This document shows positions 3,252 through 15,569 of a DNA stretch of 26,504 nucleotides, in pieces; position 1 is the first letter of the stretch, and the number at the start of each line of letters is the position of its first letter. Made by a program: the position numbers and the translations under genes. Below the pieces are notes generated by a model that was given only the letters and a program-made list of their open reading frames with translations, ran no database searches and was not told the DNA's origin. The DNA is from a virus, in IMG/VR virus record IMGVR_UViG_3300020152_000053, positions 1 through 26,504 of that record. One strand, given 5' to 3'.

Positions 3252-3544
3252 TGCTCATTGCGGCCACAAATCCTTCCAAGCAATTCAGCCAGATTTGTCG
3301 CGAGATCGCGCACAAGCTGCGCTTATCGACGGAGCAGGTTCGCCGGGCAATCACAGAGGATTTCTACGGGGTCAATACGTACACCATCGCGGGTAAAACC
3401 TATACCCAGCCCGTCAAGGAACATGATGACGCCAGCCATGATTACAAAACGCTAGTGCAGTTCTCTCTCAAGTGGGCACATGAAAAGCTGAACCTGGTGT
3501 TCTCTTTTGAGGTGCCTAAAGTTCCAGAAGCGGAGGCGGCTTGA
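3251..3544 (+). CDS. Hypothetical early protein with HTH-like segment
   Basis: The product is 97 aa, starting at the ATG that overlaps the previous TGA. Residues 14-36 (QICREIAHKLRLSTEQVRRAI) could form a helix-turn-helix. The rest has no motif I recognise. It is tightly packed between the winged-helix gene and the PP-loop gene, overlapping the latter by four bases. Reading frame and coupling support a real gene. The function is unknown. Confidence 0.65.
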   Translation: MLIAATNPSKQFSQICREIAHKLRLSTEQVRRAITEDFYGVNTYTIAGKTYTQPVKEHDDASHDYKTLVQFSLKWAHEKLNLVFSFEVPKVPEAEAA

Positions 3545-4497
3545 TCAAACACGTCGTTTCAGTCTCTGGCGGCAAAGATAGCACCGCAACCTTGCAGCTG
3601 GCACTTGTGAAATGCGGCTATGAGAGCGTCATCCCAATCTTCTGCGATACCGGCAACGAGCATGAAGCTGTGTATGAGTATTTGGGTTACCTGGAAGAAG
3701 CGCTCGGCGTGAATATTCACCGGCTCAAGGCCGACTTTTCTGAACAGATCGCCAACAAGCGCATGTTCATTGCCCGCGATATGCGTACCGGCCGCAAGAA
3801 TGGCCGACGCATGCGCTGGAGCAACAAGGCGAAGCGACGTGCTCTTGCTGTGCTGCAGCCTACTGGCAACCCATTCCTTGACCTGTGCCTATGGAAAGGT
3901 CGTTTTCCAAGCCGGAAGGCCCAGTTCTGCACTGAACATCTCAAACGGGATATGGCTGTGGAATTCCAGATGGATCTAATCGACCAAGGGCATCAGGTTG
4001 TCAGCTGGCAAGGGGTGCGCCGGGATGAAAGCCTGAACCGCCGCTATGCCAAGAAGTTTGAGCGTGTAGGTAAGGGCCTATGGATATTCAGGCCGATTGT
4101 TGAGTGGACTGCTGAACAGGTCTTTGACTACTGCAGGGAATGGGCCATTCAACCGAATCCGCTCTACCTGCAAGGCATGGGCCGTGTTGGATGTATGCCG
4201 TGCATCAATGTGAACAAGGCTGAGCTGAATGAAATTTCGAAGCGCTTCCCTGAGCATATAGCGCGCATTTCAATGTGGGAAGAACTGGTGGCTCAAGCAT
4301 CAAAACGGCAGGCCGCCACATTCATTCCAGCTCCTGGCATCACTCCAGATCAGGCCAAAGCGCACAACATCTACAGCGTCATCACTTGGGCCAAAACTTC
4401 CCGCGGCGGCAAGCAATTCAACTTCTTCGACCAACTGGAAGATGTAGGCGGCTGCAGCTCATCCTATGGCTTGTGTGATCAAGGTGTGGCCGCATGA
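3541..4497 (+). CDS. PP-loop ATPase, PAPS reductase-like (CysH/DndC superfamily)
   Basis: The 318-aa product starts at TTG 3541 (TTGA overlap), six bases after a strong GGAGG. The PP-loop SGGKDST at residues 9-15 binds ATP and adenylylates substrates in this superfamily. FCDTGNEH (34-41) follows as in PAPS reductases. Cysteines at 130 (FCTEHLK), 218 and 221 (VGCMPC), and 305 and 312 could hold an Fe-S cluster, as reported for DndC-like proteins. Phages often carry such genes with unknown substrates. Candidate roles are sulfur-based DNA or tRNA modification, or sulfur metabolism during infection. No dnd partner genes are nearby, so phosphorothioation is not supported by context. Confidence 0.85.
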   Translation: MIKHVVSVSGGKDSTATLQLALVKCGYESVIPIFCDTGNEHEAVYEYLGYLEEALGVNIHRLKADFSEQIANKRMFIARDMRTGRKNGRRMRWSNKAKRRALAVLQPTGNPFLDLCLWKGRFPSRKAQFCTEHLKRDMAVEFQMDLIDQGHQVVSWQGVRRDESLNRRYAKKFERVGKGLWIFRPIVEWTAEQVFDYCREWAIQPNPLYLQGMGRVGCMPCINVNKAELNEISKRFPEHIARISMWEELVAQASKRQAATFIPAPGITPDQAKAHNIYSVITWAKTSRGGKQFNFFDQLEDVGGCSSSYGLCDQGVAA

Positions 4498-7692: not shown

Positions 7693-7950
7693 ATGTGCGG
7701 CATGAATCCTGATCGGGACAAACTGTACGAGAAAATCACTACGCCCTTGCGCGGCGGTGAAAAGCGGTCAAGGGAAGCGCTTGCTTCTCACATCCCAGAC
7801 AATCCGAACATAGCAGCATCCGCTTGGGATCCGTTGTCCCGCTCAAAATTACCTTCCAAGCGGTCGGTGTTGAGCCAGGGTGAAGCAGCTAAACCAGCCA
7901 ACAAGGGAAACAGTCTGCTTTCCTACGGCAAATCTGAATTGGGTGCCTGA
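7693..7950 (+). CDS. Second small gp7.3-like virion protein
   Basis: The product is 85 aa, beginning MCGMNPDRD, with GGAGG seven bases upstream. It ends NSLLSYGKSELGA, matching the C-terminal plan of the preceding gene, including the shared 12-mer AACAGTCTGCTT. The middle (residues 12-65) differs. It lies immediately upstream of the portal, overlapping its start by one base. A role in tail or connector assembly is inferred from position. Confidence 0.6.
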   Translation: MCGMNPDRDKLYEKITTPLRGGEKRSREALASHIPDNPNIAASAWDPLSRSKLPSKRSVLSQGEAAKPANKGNSLLSYGKSELGA

Positions 7951-9557
7951 TGGACAGTGATATTGGCTCTCAGGTAGTCCGCAGGCTGGCAACGCTACGT
8001 GCGGCACGTCAGCCGCATGAAAACACCTGGCAGGAATGTTACGACTACTCCCACCCGATACGCGGCTCCGGCTTCATGGGGCACATCTACGATGCCGAGA
8101 CATCCAAGCGCAAACGTGCTGAACTGCTTGATGCGACTTCTACAGATTCCTGCCGCATCCTCGCATCCTCGATCATGGGTGGACTCACCCCGGCGAACTC
8201 CATTTGGTTCGAACTGGACAGCGGCGACGAATCCGAAGAAGAAAAGCGCTGGCTCGGTGCATCCGCTAAGACTCTGTGGGAAAACATCCACGCATCCAAT
8301 TTCGATGCCGTAGGCTTTGAGTGCATGCTCGATCTGGTAGATGCCGGCTGGTTCTGCATGTACGTGGAAGAGGATGAAGAGAACGGCGGCCTGAACTTCC
8401 AGCTGTGGCATATCTCAGGCGTGTTCGTTGCAGCCAGCAAAAAGGGAGGGCTCATCGATACGGTTTATCGGCCCTACACCCTGACTGTCGAGCAATGCGT
8501 CAACGAATTCGGCCTGGATAACGTCAGCGATGCTGTCCGCAACAATTACACCGAACAGAAATACGATGAAAAGGTTGAACTCGTTCATGCGATATACCCG
8601 CGCAAGATCAGTGTTTCGAATGCCAGGCTTGCGAAGAACCTGCCGTTTGCATCGGTCACAGTTGAATGCAAGAGCAAGAAGCCGTTGCGCGAGAGTGGTT
8701 ATCACGAATTCCCGTGCGTCGTACCACGCTGGATGCTTATTCCGAATTCGGATTACGCTGTCGGACCCATGTTCGACGCGCTCCCTGATGTCAAGGAGCT
8801 CAATGAGATAAACCGGCTGGAGCTGGCCTCATTGGACATCGCGCTGGGCGGCATGTGGATTGCCGAAGATGATGGCGTACTGAATCCCAAATCGATCAAG
8901 CTGGGCGCGCGTAAAGTCATCGTCGCCAACAGCGTGAACAGCATGAAGGAACTGAAATCAAGCGCTGATTTCAATGTGGGCTTCACCAAGAAGGAACAGC
9001 TGCAGGCTTCCATCCGCAAGATTCTGATGTCTGACCAGCTGCAGCCGCAGGATGGCCCCGCCATGACTGCAACCGAAGTGCATGTGCGCGTCGGTCTCAT
9101 CCGGCAACTGCTTGGCCCTGTCTATGGCCGTATGCAGGCTGAATACCTGCAGGTACTGATTACCCGCTGCTTCGGCCTCGCCTACCGTGCCGGCGTGTTT
9201 GGCCGCGCCCCTGATTCACTGGTTAATCGTTCATTCACCATCAAGTACGTTTCCCCGCTAGCCCGTGCGCAAAAACTCGAAGACGTGACCGCGATTGAAC
9301 GTCTGTATGCGAATGCCGGTGCGATTGCCGCCGCCAATGGTGACGCAAGTATTTTTGACAACCTGGACGATGACGAAGCGATTCGCCTGGTGAGTGATGC
9401 TCTGGGTTCTCCGGCCAAGGTCATGCGCACCAAGGAAGATGTCAGCCGTCTGCGCGAAGCCAAGAAGGAAGCGCAGGAAGAGGCACAGCAAGCTGCGCAG
9501 ACGCAGGCACTCACGCAAGAAGCAGGAAGCGCCGCAATTAAATCCATGGCCGCATAA
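7950..9557 (+). CDS. Portal protein (podovirus head-tail connector, T7 gp8-like)
   Basis: The product is 535 aa, the usual length for the podoviral head-tail connector family (T7 gp8, 536 aa). It forms the dodecameric ring at the capsid vertex through which DNA is packaged. Family features are the N-terminal VVRRLATLRAARQPHENTWQECYDYSHP, then LDATSTDSCRILASSIMGGLTPANSIWFEL near residue 60, and the long helical stretch TKKEQLQASIRKILMSDQLQPQ...MTATEVHVR (about 340-385). The C-terminus is a charged Gln/Ala-rich helix. It overlaps the upstream stop by one base and heads the structural block. Confidence 0.93.
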   Translation: MDSDIGSQVVRRLATLRAARQPHENTWQECYDYSHPIRGSGFMGHIYDAETSKRKRAELLDATSTDSCRILASSIMGGLTPANSIWFELDSGDESEEEKRWLGASAKTLWENIHASNFDAVGFECMLDLVDAGWFCMYVEEDEENGGLNFQLWHISGVFVAASKKGGLIDTVYRPYTLTVEQCVNEFGLDNVSDAVRNNYTEQKYDEKVELVHAIYPRKISVSNARLAKNLPFASVTVECKSKKPLRESGYHEFPCVVPRWMLIPNSDYAVGPMFDALPDVKELNEINRLELASLDIALGGMWIAEDDGVLNPKSIKLGARKVIVANSVNSMKELKSSADFNVGFTKKEQLQASIRKILMSDQLQPQDGPAMTATEVHVRVGLIRQLLGPVYGRMQAEYLQVLITRCFGLAYRAGVFGRAPDSLVNRSFTIKYVSPLARAQKLEDVTAIERLYANAGAIAAANGDASIFDNLDDDEAIRLVSDALGSPAKVMRTKEDVSRLREAKKEAQEEAQQAAQTQALTQEAGSAAIKSMAA

Positions 9558-9564
9558 GGTTTAA

Positions 9565-9801
9565 ATGCCTGACTCGTTACAACCCCAGCTTTACAAGGAC
9601 GTTTTCGAAGATGACCGCCGAGGCGCGGCCATTCTCGATGAGCTCATTCGCAGGTTTGGACGCAATCCATACGTACCCGGTGGCCTCGAAGGTGCGCGCC
9701 AGACCGATTTCAACGCGGGACAGAACAACGTAGTGCAGTTCCTCATTAACCGCATTAATCAAGCCAACGGAGTAGAAGAGAATGAACAAGAGAATGCGTA
9801 G
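9565..9801 (+). CDS. Bbp19-like small structural protein
   Basis: The product is 78 aa. Residues 10-65 (YKDVFEDDRRGAAILDEL, then DFNAGQNNVVQFLINRI) follow the pattern of the Bbp19-like domain named after Bordetella phage BPP-1: a short N-terminal helix, then a conserved FNxGxxxVxxxI helix. In BPP-1 the gene sits between portal and scaffold/capsid genes, as here. AAGG lies six bases upstream. The precise role is not established. Confidence 0.7.
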   Translation: MPDSLQPQLYKDVFEDDRRGAAILDELIRRFGRNPYVPGGLEGARQTDFNAGQNNVVQFLINRINQANGVEENEQENA

Positions 9802-10639
9802 GTTGTTTTATTTCATGAACGAAGCCGGTGACGGCACGCAAGGCGGTGCAGGTGGCGGTTCTGGTACTGGTGAAGGTGCGGCAGGTGGTCAAGGCGATGG
9901 CGGCGCTGGATCCGTATTAGCCGGTGCAGCGGGTACCACAACCGCAATCAATGAACTGATCCCCGAGAAATACCGCGTCAGCAAGGAAGATGGCACATTC
10001 GACATCGAAGCATCCGCACGCAAACTGGCGGAAGGCCACACCAATCTGGAAAAGAAATTGGGTTCCGGTGATGCCGCCCCATCCGCTCCCACTGAATACA
10101 AGATCAACGTGCCAGACGAGTTCAAGGAAGCCGTGGCCTCCGACGCACCCGAAATGCAGCAGTTCCTCGCTGATGCGCATGCGGTCGGCATGACGCAGAA
10201 GCAGCTCGATTTCGTGATGAACCAATATGCGGGCATTCTTCCGCAGCTGGCATCCGGCAATAACTTCACTCCAGAAGCCGCGACGGAATCACTGAAGGAA
10301 ACATGGAAGACCGAAGAGGAATTCAATGCCGGCGTGAAAGGTGCCTACCGCGCTGCTGTCGGGTTCGGTGAGAAGGTCGGCGTCAGTTTTGATGACATGG
10401 AATCCAGCGGCCTGACCAACAATCCGGTATTCATGCGCATCATGGCGGCCGTCAGTAAGGAAATGGGCGAAGACAAGATTCCGAATGATGGTGCAGGTGG
10501 TGGAAGCGGTGACAGCTCAATCGAAGCCCTGCAGGCATCTGAGGCCTATCGCAATCCCAAGCATGCTGATCATGCCAAGGTCAGCGAGCAGGTTCGCCAG
10601 TTCTACGCCAAGAAGTACGGCGACGCACCAGTTCTGTAA
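9782..10639 (+). CDS. Capsid scaffolding/assembly protein (T7 gp9-like)
   Basis: The product is 285 aa from ATG 9782, with GGAG nine bases upstream. ATG 9815 (MNEAGDG) would match the usual start of such proteins but has no good ribosome site. Residues 13-50 are Gly-rich, the middle is acidic and helical (EFKEAVASDAPEMQQFLAD, MTQKQLDFVMNQY), and the C-terminus is basic (VSEQVRQFYAKKYGD). Composition, size and position before the major capsid gene match podovirus scaffolds, which guide capsid assembly and leave before DNA packaging. Confidence 0.8.
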   Translation: MNKRMRRLFYFMNEAGDGTQGGAGGGSGTGEGAAGGQGDGGAGSVLAGAAGTTTAINELIPEKYRVSKEDGTFDIEASARKLAEGHTNLEKKLGSGDAAPSAPTEYKINVPDEFKEAVASDAPEMQQFLADAHAVGMTQKQLDFVMNQYAGILPQLASGNNFTPEAATESLKETWKTEEEFNAGVKGAYRAAVGFGEKVGVSFDDMESSGLTNNPVFMRIMAAVSKEMGEDKIPNDGAGGGSGDSSIEALQASEAYRNPKHADHAKVSEQVRQFYAKKYGDAPVL

Positions 10640-10645
10640 TTCCAA

Positions 10646-10663
10646 ATAGTCGGGAAACCGACA
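10646..10663. repeat. 18-bp direct repeat, copy 1 (capsid leader)
   Basis: ATAGTCGGGAAACCGACA occurs here and, base for base, at 23743-23760 inside the large terminase gene. The central part is a GAAA-capped hairpin. A chance 18-bp match within 26.5 kb is unlikely. Confidence 0.75.
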
Positions 10664-10737
10664 CTCACCTTGCGCGACTATTGCGGGCATCGGCCTGCGG
10701 TAGCGCGCAGACACCCGTTAAAGCTCACAGGTTCAGC

Positions 10738-10821
10738 ATGGTAGCCGATGCCGAACTGGCGAACAGGCCCGCTCCAACGGACACCCTGAAGGCGAATTTA
10801 CCAATTCTTTTTCAGGAGTAA
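10738..10821 (+). CDS. Possible 27-aa leader peptide ORF before the capsid gene
   Basis: ATG 10738 opens a 27-codon frame (MVADAELANRPAPTDTLK...) whose TAA at 10819-10821 abuts the capsid AGGAG site, five bases from the capsid ATG. AGG lies six bases upstream of the start. The frame has no stop back to about 10636. It could couple or attenuate capsid translation, or be accidental. Its bases also form the leader's 9-bp stem. Confidence 0.3.
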   Translation: MVADAELANRPAPTDTLKANLPILFQE

Positions 10822-10825
10822 AAAA

Positions 10826-11806
10826 ATGAAAGCATACATTCAAAGCAACAAGTGGCAACTCGCAGGCCTCGCGCTGGCGCTCGCTCTCGTATCTGTTGGC
10901 GTTATGCCTGCTGATGCAATGGCCGGTGTCGCCTTGGTCGGCGTAGGTTCTACCACCATCACCAATGCCTTTGTGCAGCAGTTCGATAGCAATATCCGCC
11001 TGCTGTCACAGCAAAAGGAATCCCGCCTTGAAATCGCCGCGCATGACCGCGGCAACATCACCGGCGAATCCTTCACCGCTAACCGTCTTGCCGCCCTGGA
11101 AGATACGCCAGAGAACAACACCCGGCACGGTGACACGCAATGGTCCGAGTCCGATCATTCCACCCGCGTTGCCTTGATGAAAGATTTCTATCAAGCCCTG
11201 CCGGTGGATCGTGCTGACGAGCCGAAGCTCCTCGCCAACCCGAACGGTGCATACACCGATTCCCTGCTGGCCGCATGGAATCGCCGTAAGGATGCAATCC
11301 TGTACGCAGCTCTGCGCGGTAACTCGCAGGCAAAGGACGGCTCGCTGGTCGCGCTGACCTCTGGCCAGAAGATCGCTCACGGCGGTACCGGCTTTACCAA
11401 GGCCAAGCTGATCCAGGCCAAGAAGCTGTTCCGGACCAATGAGCTCGATGAGCACAACGGCGAAGAACTTTACATCACCTTCAACGGTGAAATGCTGGAA
11501 GACATCCTGGCTGATACCACCTTGACCAGTGCCGATTACATGGCCGTCAAGATGCTGCAGGACGGTGACGTTTCCGGTAAGTGGATGGGCTTCAAGTGGG
11601 TTCCTTACGAGGGCCTGACCTTCTCCGCATCAACCTACTACGCAGTTGCCTGGGCGAAGTCTGCGATTCATCGCGGTACTGGCTTCGTGGAAGGCAAATC
11701 CCAACGCCGCGGCGACAAGAAAGACACCATGCAGGTTTCCATGGCTGGTTCTTACGGTGCTGTACGGGTTGAGGAAAAAGGCGTAGTCGAGATCGCCTTC
11801 CAATAA
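10826..11806 (+). CDS. Major capsid protein with signal-peptide-like N-terminus
   Basis: The product is 326 aa, starting at ATG 10826 with AGGAG seven bases upstream. From residue 42 (TTITNAFVQQFDSNIRLLSQQ) the protein reads like podovirus HK97-fold capsid proteins of the family that normally begins near this point. It follows the scaffold gene. Residues 1-41 are extra: K2 and K9, a hydrophobic core LAGLALALALVSVGV (12-26), then ADAMA-G with an A-x-A motif at 31-33, the form of a Sec signal peptide. A shorter start at Met32 lacks a ribosome site. The extension may be a membrane-targeting or assembly domain. Capsid identity is firm by context, moderate by sequence. Confidence 0.82.
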   Translation: MKAYIQSNKWQLAGLALALALVSVGVMPADAMAGVALVGVGSTTITNAFVQQFDSNIRLLSQQKESRLEIAAHDRGNITGESFTANRLAALEDTPENNTRHGDTQWSESDHSTRVALMKDFYQALPVDRADEPKLLANPNGAYTDSLLAAWNRRKDAILYAALRGNSQAKDGSLVALTSGQKIAHGGTGFTKAKLIQAKKLFRTNELDEHNGEELYITFNGEMLEDILADTTLTSADYMAVKMLQDGDVSGKWMGFKWVPYEGLTFSASTYYAVAWAKSAIHRGTGFVEGKSQRRGDKKDTMQVSMAGSYGAVRVEEKGVVEIAFQ

Positions 11807-12956: not shown

Positions 12957-15124
12957 TGCCTCGCGTCACCATCATCCAGACCAATTTCACAGCTGGGGAA
13001 TTGAGCCCTCGGCTGTATGGCCGCATTGACATCGAGCGCTACAACAACGCTGTCAAGCGCATGCGCAACATGACGCCAGTTATTCATGGTGGCGCCAAGG
13101 ATCGCGGCGGCTGGCTTTACAAGGCACCTACCAAACATGCGGATAAGCGTGCTGTACTGGTGCCGTTCGTTTTCAACATCGATCAATCCTACATGCTGGA
13201 GTTCGGTGACCAGTACATGCGCGTATTCATGGACGGCGCACAGGTCGAATCATCCCCGGGCGTACCGTATGAAATCAGCAGCCCATTCACTGAAGCCATG
13301 CTGGCGAACATTGATTTCGAGCAGGCCGCCGATACGATGTTCATCACGCATGAGGAAGTACCTACGCAACGGCTGCGCAGGTTCGGGCATGCACTATGGG
13401 ATTTGTCACCGACGCCGTTCATTGTCGAGCCATTTGATGAGCTGGGCATTAAGCCAGCCGCAGACTTAACACTGTCTGCTGCAACAGTCGGCACCGGGCG
13501 CACATTCACTGCAAGTGTGGCGAAGTTCCTTGCTGGGGATGTAGGCCGAGAGATTACCTCTGGCGCAGGCCTGGCCGTCATCACTGGATTCACCAGTACA
13601 ACTGTGGTGACGTGCGAAATCATCATTGCATTCAGCGGCACAAGTATTTCTTCCGGTGAATGGACACTGACCGGAACTCCTCACACATCTTGCACGCCTT
13701 CTGCCAAGGATCCTGTCGGTACTGCGATAACTCTCACCCTCGCTGCAAATGGCTGGCGTTCAGATGATGTCGGCAAGATGGTCAGGATTAACGGCGGACT
13801 GTGCGAGATAACCGCCATCACAAGCGCCCTCGTGGTAGATGCGGTTATCAAGGTTGTACTTTCAGCCACTGCCGCCGCCCCTGCCCTGTCGTGGACATTG
13901 GAAAGCTCTATCTGGAATGCTGATGATGGCTACCCTTCAACCGTAACACTGCATCAGCAACGCTTGATACTGGCCGGATCTCCCGGGCATCCGCAATCGG
14001 TAGCAGGCAGCAAGACTGCTGAATACCTCGATTTCACGCTTGGCACGGCTGACGATGCAGCATTTCTGTTCAAGGTGGCTGAAACGCAGGACCAGCTGTT
14101 GCATCTGGTGAAGCTCAAAGAGCTACTCGCGCTCAGTCAGACCGGGGAATTCTCGCTTGCCGGCGGCATTGAGAAGCCGATCACCCCGACCAATGTACAA
14201 ATCAAGTCTCAGGCGCCATACGGTGCAAACCGCGTCCGTCCTCTTCGTGTCGGCAATGAAATTTTCTATGTGCACCGCGCCAACAAGAAACTGATGGCGA
14301 CCAGCTATCAGCTGGATTCTGACGGCTTCAATGCAGCTGATGTTTCCAAAATCTCCGACCACATCGCAAAGCTCGGTATCGTCGGCATGACCTACGAGCA
14401 AGAACCGGAATCGCTCATGTGGCTGATTCTGGCTGACGGTTCCTACGCAAGCCTGACGCTCGACCGCGAAGAGAAGGTCACTGCCTGGGCGCATCACGAT
14501 ACTGATGGCGTAGTAGAAGCCATGGCAACCATGCCAGTGCCTGACGGTGAAGAGACATGGGCCATTATCCGGCGTGAAATCGATGGCAATACCGTGCGCT
14601 ATGTTGAAAAGCGCGATATTGACGTCAGGCTCGACAGTGCAATTGTCGGTGAAGATGCTGGCGGAGCCGCCACCTGGACAGGCCTCGATCACCTCGAAGG
14701 CAAGGAAGTTGCCGTATTGGCGGACGGTGTTTATATGGGCTTGTTCACCGTGGAAGCCGGCGAAATCACTTTACCGCGCGATGCCCTTGAGGTTGAGATT
14801 GGCCTGCCGTTTGTGGCCGAAATCGAAATGCTGCCGGCAGAGGTGCCAACGGGTACGGGCACCGCTCAAGGCAATGCAGTAAGAACCGGCAAAGCGATTG
14901 TTCGCCTGCTCGAATCCAGCGGCTGCAAGATCAATGGCGACCAGATACCTTTCCGCAAATTCGGAAGCGATCTGCTGGACCGTGATGCACCTCACTTCAC
15001 TGGCGATAAAGAATTAACCCTGTCGGGCTGGGATAAGTCAGGCGGGGCCATCACCATCACACAAGACTTGCCGTTGCCTCTGCATGTGTTGGCCGTGATC
15101 CGCAAGGTGACTGTCAATGATTAA
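12956..15124 (+). CDS. Tail tubular protein B (T7 gp12-like nozzle)
   Basis: The product is 722 aa (T7 gp12 is 794). It begins with the hallmark QTNFTAGELSPRLYGRIDIERYNNAVKRMRNM, followed by HGGAKDRGGWLYKAP and LVPFVFNIDQSYMLEFGDQYMRVF, all typical of podovirus nozzle proteins. Residues about 365-470 hold the conserved NVQIKSQAPYGANRVRP...FYVHRANKKLMATSY region. Residues 180-310 have several Ser/Thr/Ala-rich β-strands that could be an inserted domain. The protein forms the hexameric tail nozzle. Confidence 0.9.
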   Translation: MPRVTIIQTNFTAGELSPRLYGRIDIERYNNAVKRMRNMTPVIHGGAKDRGGWLYKAPTKHADKRAVLVPFVFNIDQSYMLEFGDQYMRVFMDGAQVESSPGVPYEISSPFTEAMLANIDFEQAADTMFITHEEVPTQRLRRFGHALWDLSPTPFIVEPFDELGIKPAADLTLSAATVGTGRTFTASVAKFLAGDVGREITSGAGLAVITGFTSTTVVTCEIIIAFSGTSISSGEWTLTGTPHTSCTPSAKDPVGTAITLTLAANGWRSDDVGKMVRINGGLCEITAITSALVVDAVIKVVLSATAAAPALSWTLESSIWNADDGYPSTVTLHQQRLILAGSPGHPQSVAGSKTAEYLDFTLGTADDAAFLFKVAETQDQLLHLVKLKELLALSQTGEFSLAGGIEKPITPTNVQIKSQAPYGANRVRPLRVGNEIFYVHRANKKLMATSYQLDSDGFNAADVSKISDHIAKLGIVGMTYEQEPESLMWLILADGSYASLTLDREEKVTAWAHHDTDGVVEAMATMPVPDGEETWAIIRREIDGNTVRYVEKRDIDVRLDSAIVGEDAGGAATWTGLDHLEGKEVAVLADGVYMGLFTVEAGEITLPRDALEVEIGLPFVAEIEMLPAEVPTGTGTAQGNAVRTGKAIVRLLESSGCKINGDQIPFRKFGSDLLDRDAPHFTGDKELTLSGWDKSGGAITITQDLPLPLHVLAVIRKVTVND

Positions 15125-15569
15125 GACCGCCATCCGCATCGCTACCGGCAAGGATGCATGGTTCATCGCCAACAACTTGCGTCCTGACGACCTCAAGGAA
15201 CTGCGTGCGCTGCAGCAAGGCCTGCCGGAAGTGCTTGTGATGGAAACATTTGAGTGTGCAGCCTGGTCGCGCGTCGCCACCCTCAATGATGTGCCGGTGA
15301 TTCTGTATGGTGTCTGTCCACATGACATCAAGGGGCATGGCATTCCCTTCATGGTCGCCACGCCAGCCATTACCCAATTCACCAAGCGGTTTGTTCGTGG
15401 CTCCATCGATGAAGTATTCCTGATGGAAAAGACCTTTCCCAAGCTCATCAACATGGTACACAAGGAAAATCAGCTCTCTCGCCGCTGGCTGAAGTGGCTT
15501 GGCTTCGAGATAGATGAAAAACCTGTCGGGCCTGGCGGGGAATTCATGATGTTTACCAAGGGGATTTGA
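15117..15569 (+). CDS. Internal virion protein, T7 gp13-like
   Basis: The product is 150 aa, starting eight bases inside the nozzle gene, with AAGGTGA seven bases upstream. The N-terminus IRIATGKDAWFIANNLRPDD, then YGVCPHDIKGHGIPFMVATP, and the C-terminal LKWLGFEIDEKP...GEFMMFTKG follow the T7 gp13-like, acetyltransferase-fold family encoded between tail tube B and gp14. T7 gp13 is needed for virion morphogenesis. Any catalytic activity is doubtful. Confidence 0.8.
   Translation: MIKTAIRIATGKDAWFIANNLRPDDLKELRALQQGLPEVLVMETFECAAWSRVATLNDVPVILYGVCPHDIKGHGIPFMVATPAITQFTKRFVRGSIDEVFLMEKTFPKLINMVHKENQLSRRWLKWLGFEIDEKPVGPGGEFMMFTKGI

Follow-up and report, generated by a model that had tools for sequence, protein, structure and literature searches.

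Why should the major capsid protein of a tailed phage begin with a segment that resembles a signal peptide? The question is raised by one gene in the window, which here means the whole stretch of viral DNA that was analysed (26,504 nucleotides). The ORF at 10826-11806 (+) encodes 326 amino acids and its product is an HK97-fold major capsid protein. Residues 1-41 of this product lie outside the capsid family match, which starts at residue 42-45. The head genes and the parts of the leader are as follows.

7950-9557, + strand: portal gene of the same head module (PF12236)
9782-10639, + strand: T7-type capsid assembly (scaffold) gene (phrog_3742, 3e-49; PF05396 below the cut-off)
10643-10818, + strand: conserved, strongly folded 5' untranslated region ending in AGGAG (alignment of relatives, fold z-score, compensatory pairs)
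10826-10948, + strand: putative N-terminal membrane leader, residues 1-41, with a K2/K9 n-region, hydrophobic core, Pro turn and second strip; homologues in two capsid families
10859-10903, + strand: hydrophobic core of the leader, residues 12-26 (predicted helix 9-23; 15-residue mean hydropathy 2.48, AlphaFold)
10904-10915, + strand: turn M27-P28-A29-D30, in which the leader has its single acidic residue and which is the equivalent of the PHE/PHD/HHD/PDH turn in other leaders
10916-10948, + strand: second, shorter hydrophobic strip AMAGVALVGVG, residues 31-41, with A-x-A sites inside (predicted helix 29-38; sequence, AlphaFold)
10949-11806, + strand: capsid core, residues 42-326 and stop (PF19821/phrog_3437, HK97 fold)

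Start codon and product of the capsid gene

The PF19821 profile covers capsid residues 45-325 in a full-length match (208 bits, 291 of 293 positions), and the phrog_3437 profile covers residues 42-326 (1.9e-85). AlphaFold models the window capsid as an HK97-type shell protein, and the top Foldseek match of this model, the closest solved structure, is the capsid of phage LME-1 (9eg4). A preliminary description of this DNA had placed the beginning of the capsid-like part at TTITNAF, residue 42. The two profiles bear out a boundary directly after the leader, but the motif itself starts at residue 43. The signal-peptide-like form that was described is present in all its parts: K2, K9, a hydrophobic run at 12-26 and ADAMA (29-33) followed by G34. 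Among the 25 plausible genes of the window, the leader has the highest N-terminal hydropathy.

The start codon was said to be fixed by a ribosome site. This holds, as the Shine-Dalgarno sequence AGGAG at 10814-10818 lies 7 nt 5' of ATG 10826, and homologous leaders in relatives point to the same start. Third codon positions vary most in the leader (0.41, 0.36 and 0.58 for the three positions) and likewise in the core (0.24, 0.21 and 0.43). Since a homologous leader begins at the same start codon in five diverged relatives and third-position changes are the commonest, the leader is not a chance read-through. It is confirmed as a real segment, translated from ATG 10826.

Distribution of the leader in two capsid families

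IMG/VR was scanned for close capsid relatives, their start sites were read, and 44 distinct cores were placed in a tree. Of these close relatives, 38 are leaderless and start at about window residue 42, with a ribosome site at the same position; most of them open with M(S/P)xTITQAF and are preceded by the same conserved upstream region. Starts of this kind with matching ribosome sites had been named beforehand as evidence against the leader. They are the rule among the relatives, yet a homologous leader is found in five others (L002, L008, L009, L037 and L038), which with the window gives six leader-bearing PF19821 capsids. Because the leader is conserved as an add-on in these members, the leaderless majority does not refute it. 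In the five relatives, MKxYIxxxKW is followed by a hydrophobic core, a PHE-like turn and a short hydrophobic strip, and then by the same capsid core. The two start forms differ by an insertion between start codon and capsid core. Leader identity ranges from 31 to 58% among the six diverged capsids; in L008 and L009 the cores are 88% identical and the leaders 42%.

Leader-bearing proteins are scattered on the 44-core tree, where six changes are needed. A single clade of leader-bearing cores is rejected with a p-AU of 1e-46, a value that comes from a single tree and is conditional on a grouping named after the leader was seen. In principle the pattern could reflect either loss from an ancestor or repeated acquisition. 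Acquisition is favoured since the outgroups, phages of Yersinia, Alcaligenes, Acinetobacter, Escherichia and Pelagibacter, are leaderless, and it probably proceeded by recombination through the conserved flanks. With the leader as query, tblastn had no match among isolated phages at E 10; the low-complexity filter probably masks the query, so that this result does not imply absence, and isolates were therefore judged by annotated start. By this measure, none of the checked isolates related by PF19821/phrog_3437 carries the leader. A separate gene that donates the leader was considered and rejected: no stand-alone copy occurs in 42 records, and wider DNA-pattern scans gave only unrelated proteins besides the known leader-bearing contigs. 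Nor does a second, leaderless capsid gene stand beside a leader-bearing one, as each record has a single capsid gene.

The second family was reached with a leader-only profile, which was trained on the six PF19821 leaders and applied to 399 genomes from a single bacterial order. Its best match, L097 (1.3e-6), and its third, L099 (1e-3), both correspond to residues 1-41 of phrog_1005 capsids, the family of the heads of Pseudomonas phage B3 and Burkholderia phage KS10. Some uncultured members of this family thus bear the same leader at the same position, and here too the family profile begins only at residue 42-43 of L097 and L099. When the window capsid was compared with L097 by BLASTP, residues 1-44 gave the sole significant match (E 0.010). 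The capsid cores of PF19821 and phrog_1005 have no BLASTP-recognisable kinship. An IMG/VR search of phrog_1005 added nine leader-bearing members (11 in total) and about 50 without the leader, which start with MSTTAFPVNP or MATTAFPVNP. The leader is scattered in this family as well, with eight changes on a quick tree, at least five of them forced. The isolated relatives B3, KS10, Bise and TJ1 have no leader by their annotated starts. Leader-bearing sequences are mostly metagenomic, and two (L097 and L099) lie in bacterial genome assemblies. A 73.7-kb record, IMGVR_UViG_2602042090_000006, holds two phrog_1005 capsid copies, L174 and L175, 45 kb apart; it may comprise two adjacent prophages.

Reciprocal profile tests support a common origin of the two sets of leaders. 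The phrog_1005 leader profile scores the PF19821 leaders at 21-34 bits, whereas none of 65 unrelated hydrophobic N-terminal segments scores above 13.8, and in the reverse direction 9 of 11 phrog_1005 leaders exceed the 99th percentile. These reciprocal scores are slightly raised by the last 1-3 residues of the leader strings, which are shared with the core start (ST/TT). Leaders of each family score higher than unrelated hydrophobic N-termini with the profile of the other. It is therefore well supported that the leader is one homologous module, found in both of these unrelated capsid families, with many gains or losses.

Other searches with the leader returned the same capsids. Phages with and without the leader together gave 6,610 ORFs, and among these the leader profile matched capsids only. 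Comparison with Pfam, PHROG and NCBIfam gave sub-threshold matches only, and a scan for further leader-bearing capsid families gave none. A refined profile had strong matches only at the two known loci in 345 genomes, followed by a host LptC-like anchor and then a transporter. The first of these, L252 (21 bits), looks like a common signal anchor at the N-terminus of an LptC-like host protein. A co-inherited partner gene was rejected, as no ORF is common to the leader-bearing genomes of both families. A diversity-generating retroelement, with related reverse-transcriptase, Avd-like and variable-protein genes in the two records, is present in L226 (the record of L002) and L233 (the record of L162), and was not seen in the leaderless records compared. 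It is probably unrelated to the leader.

Anatomy and possible functions of the leader

In all 17 leaders of the two families, the n-region has one to three K/R residues and is followed by a hydrophobic core of 15-19 residues (15-residue mean hydropathy 2.2-3.3). After this core there is no K or R in any of the 17 leaders (306 residues). Acidic residues after the core number one per leader, and two in L138, and usually sit in a turn of the PHE/PHD/HHD/PDH type. A second short hydrophobic strip lies downstream of the turn in 17 of 17. AlphaFold, run on independent alignments, placed helices at 2-7, 9-23 and 29-38 in the window protein and at 2-7, 9-23 and 29-39 in L120. A helix-break-helix is thus predicted for leaders of both capsid families. 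Confidence is moderate in the leader (block means 47-79) and the link to the core is disordered.

The charge pattern is typical of a segment that inserts into the inner membrane and keeps its N-terminus inside. From the sequences and models we infer membrane insertion, topology, tethering and release of the leader as follows. The positive N-terminus would remain cytoplasmic, and the first hydrophobic helix would insert into the inner membrane. The Pro/His/acidic turn would lie at or within the membrane, and the second strip would run into the unchanged N-arm of the capsid. New capsid protein would be held at the inner membrane, where head assembly may thereby begin or concentrate, and the leader would come free or be cleaved off either ahead of shell closure or in its course. 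That residues 1-41 are a transferable membrane-insertion leader of some tailed-phage capsids, and that it keeps the nascent capsid protein on the inner membrane while heads assemble, has in our judgement just short of an even chance. The wider proposal, that a mobile membrane-anchor module is fused to the capsids of unrelated tailed phages and that the shell protein is itself a membrane protein during assembly, is put forward tentatively, as a serious possibility rather than an expectation.

Topology presents a difficulty for a tether, as an N-in/C-out segment puts the core in the periplasm unless it forms a re-entrant hairpin or export is stalled. Because the shell protein must finally be cytoplasmic, the leader is probably an uncleaved anchor, a re-entrant hairpin, or a segment removed before closure. 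The modelled helix-break-helix and the second strip lead us to guess at a hairpin. The N-termini of HK97-fold capsids face the interior of the procapsid, and hence a tether would be limited to the time before the shell closes, when subunits are free or lattices still open.

The preliminary description had offered three ideas for this segment: a membrane tether, a delta-like assembly domain and processing by signal peptidase. The tether fits best, in view of the positive-inside pattern in 17 of 17 leaders and the helix-break-helix. The delta-like domain is a live rival, although we consider it rather unlikely. Here the hydrophobic helices would pack under the capsomers inside the procapsid and aid the scaffold, to be cleaved or retained, and no membrane would be involved. 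The leader sits where the N-terminal pro-domains of the HK97/T5/T4 type are located, directly before the unchanged N-arm and absent from the shared capsid core. This arrangement is compatible with two capsid families and with the scaffold gene that the phages keep, and an interior-facing N-terminus poses no geometric difficulty. However, the one-sided charge (0 K/R in 306 residues) and the membrane-like hydropathy would serve no evident purpose in an internal bundle. The delta domain of HK97 and T5 and the propeptide of T4 gp23 are longer, charged or coiled-coil segments that are removed by a phage protease, whereas the leader is a short hydrophobic helix-break-helix. No prohead protease was found among the scanned proteins of the window, which is an incomplete record; the "protease" label of phrog_458 matches the scaffold gene there.

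Signal-peptidase processing does not hold as the general explanation. A genuine Sec signal peptide, which signal peptidase I would cut near residue 31-33 while a fast-folding core stays in or slips back to the cytoplasm, is improbable. In the window, the positive n-region and hydrophobic core of such a peptide are present, and ADA/M and AMA/G follow Pro28 at textbook spacing for the enzyme. A strict A-x-A occurs in all six PF19821 leaders, and the mature N-terminus of a cut product would resemble that of the leaderless relatives. Against this, A-x-A is found in 10 of 17 leaders and missing from the other 7, so that the small-residue (-3,-1) site is not conserved among homologues and simple signal-peptidase processing is not their common feature. 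The second strip and the acidic turn are retained beyond the needs of cleavage, and assembly would be blocked if the shell protein were exported. Sec signal peptides and N-terminal signal anchors, such as that of host LptC, share with the window leader a positive n-region, a hydrophobic core and a c-region with Pro and small residues. They differ from it in that the leader stands on a capsid protein, lacks a general A-x-A and has a conserved acidic turn and a second strip.

It is very improbable that the leader is an arms-race add-on, which masks or alters the capsid N-terminus against a capsid-sensing host defence or prevents mixed shells from forming with a co-infecting phage. The patchy distribution with repeated gain and loss and the fast divergence seen in L008 and L009 would agree with it, but it leaves unexplained why charge pattern, hydrophobic core and acidic turn are fixed, and no defence partner was identified. 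Last, an annotation artefact, with true initiation at Met32 or later and an accidental open frame upstream, would suit the majority of relatives that begin at the equivalent of residue 42, but is almost certainly wrong, as the ribosome site and the upstream untranslated region end at ATG 10826 and at the matching ATG in relatives, leader homologues occur in two capsid families, and L008, L037 and L038 have no Met near the core, which also rules out two products by internal initiation.

Membrane-nucleated assembly itself has precedents. Heads of T4 (PMC9958956) and SPP1 (PMC13212656) assemble at the inner membrane via the portal. In T4 (gp20/gp40/YidC) and SPP1 (gp6) the contact is the portal, unlike the shell protein proposed here. 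Capsid proteins with additional N-terminal domains are known. In the open-access literature searched, we found no description of a short hydrophobic leader that is common to two unrelated capsid families and repeatedly gained and lost, nor of a shell protein acting as a membrane protein during tailed-phage head assembly. If the leader tethers the capsid to the membrane, the reasons for phage head assembly at membranes become directly accessible to genetics, since one and the same capsid core occurs naturally with and without the leader. The leader may also serve as a portable tag that places HK97-fold shells on membranes.

The upstream region and neighbouring genes

The PF19821/phrog_3437 heads of HTVC010P-like phages, Yersinia phage YeP5 and Alcaligenes phage Piluca share with the window the part that corresponds to residues 42-326, the HK97 fold and the gene order (portal, scaffold, capsid, tail tubes), but have no leader. 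Since a scaffold gene is present next door, the leader does not replace the scaffold, and a role as scaffold substitute was rejected.

The upstream region of about 176 nt occupies the same place before about 42 related capsid genes (L001-L076), leader-bearing and leaderless alike. Its predicted fold in the window has an MFE of -74.7 kcal/mol (z -6.1 against shuffles), and the mean z in 37 relatives is -1.5. Compensatory changes are found in 8 of 15 consensus pairs. The last helix of the predicted window fold overlaps and pairs with part of the capsid Shine-Dalgarno sequence; when this hairpin was aligned locally by itself, no consensus helix emerged at the ribosome site. With no match in Rfam, the region looks like an undescribed cis-regulatory RNA.

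Two other genes of the window may be mentioned. The early region encodes, judging by eye, a phosphoadenosine phosphosulfate reductase-type product (3541-4497). A small N-acetyltransferase-like gene (15117-15569) lies between the tail-tube and internal-protein genes, and Piluca has a gene annotated likewise in the same place.
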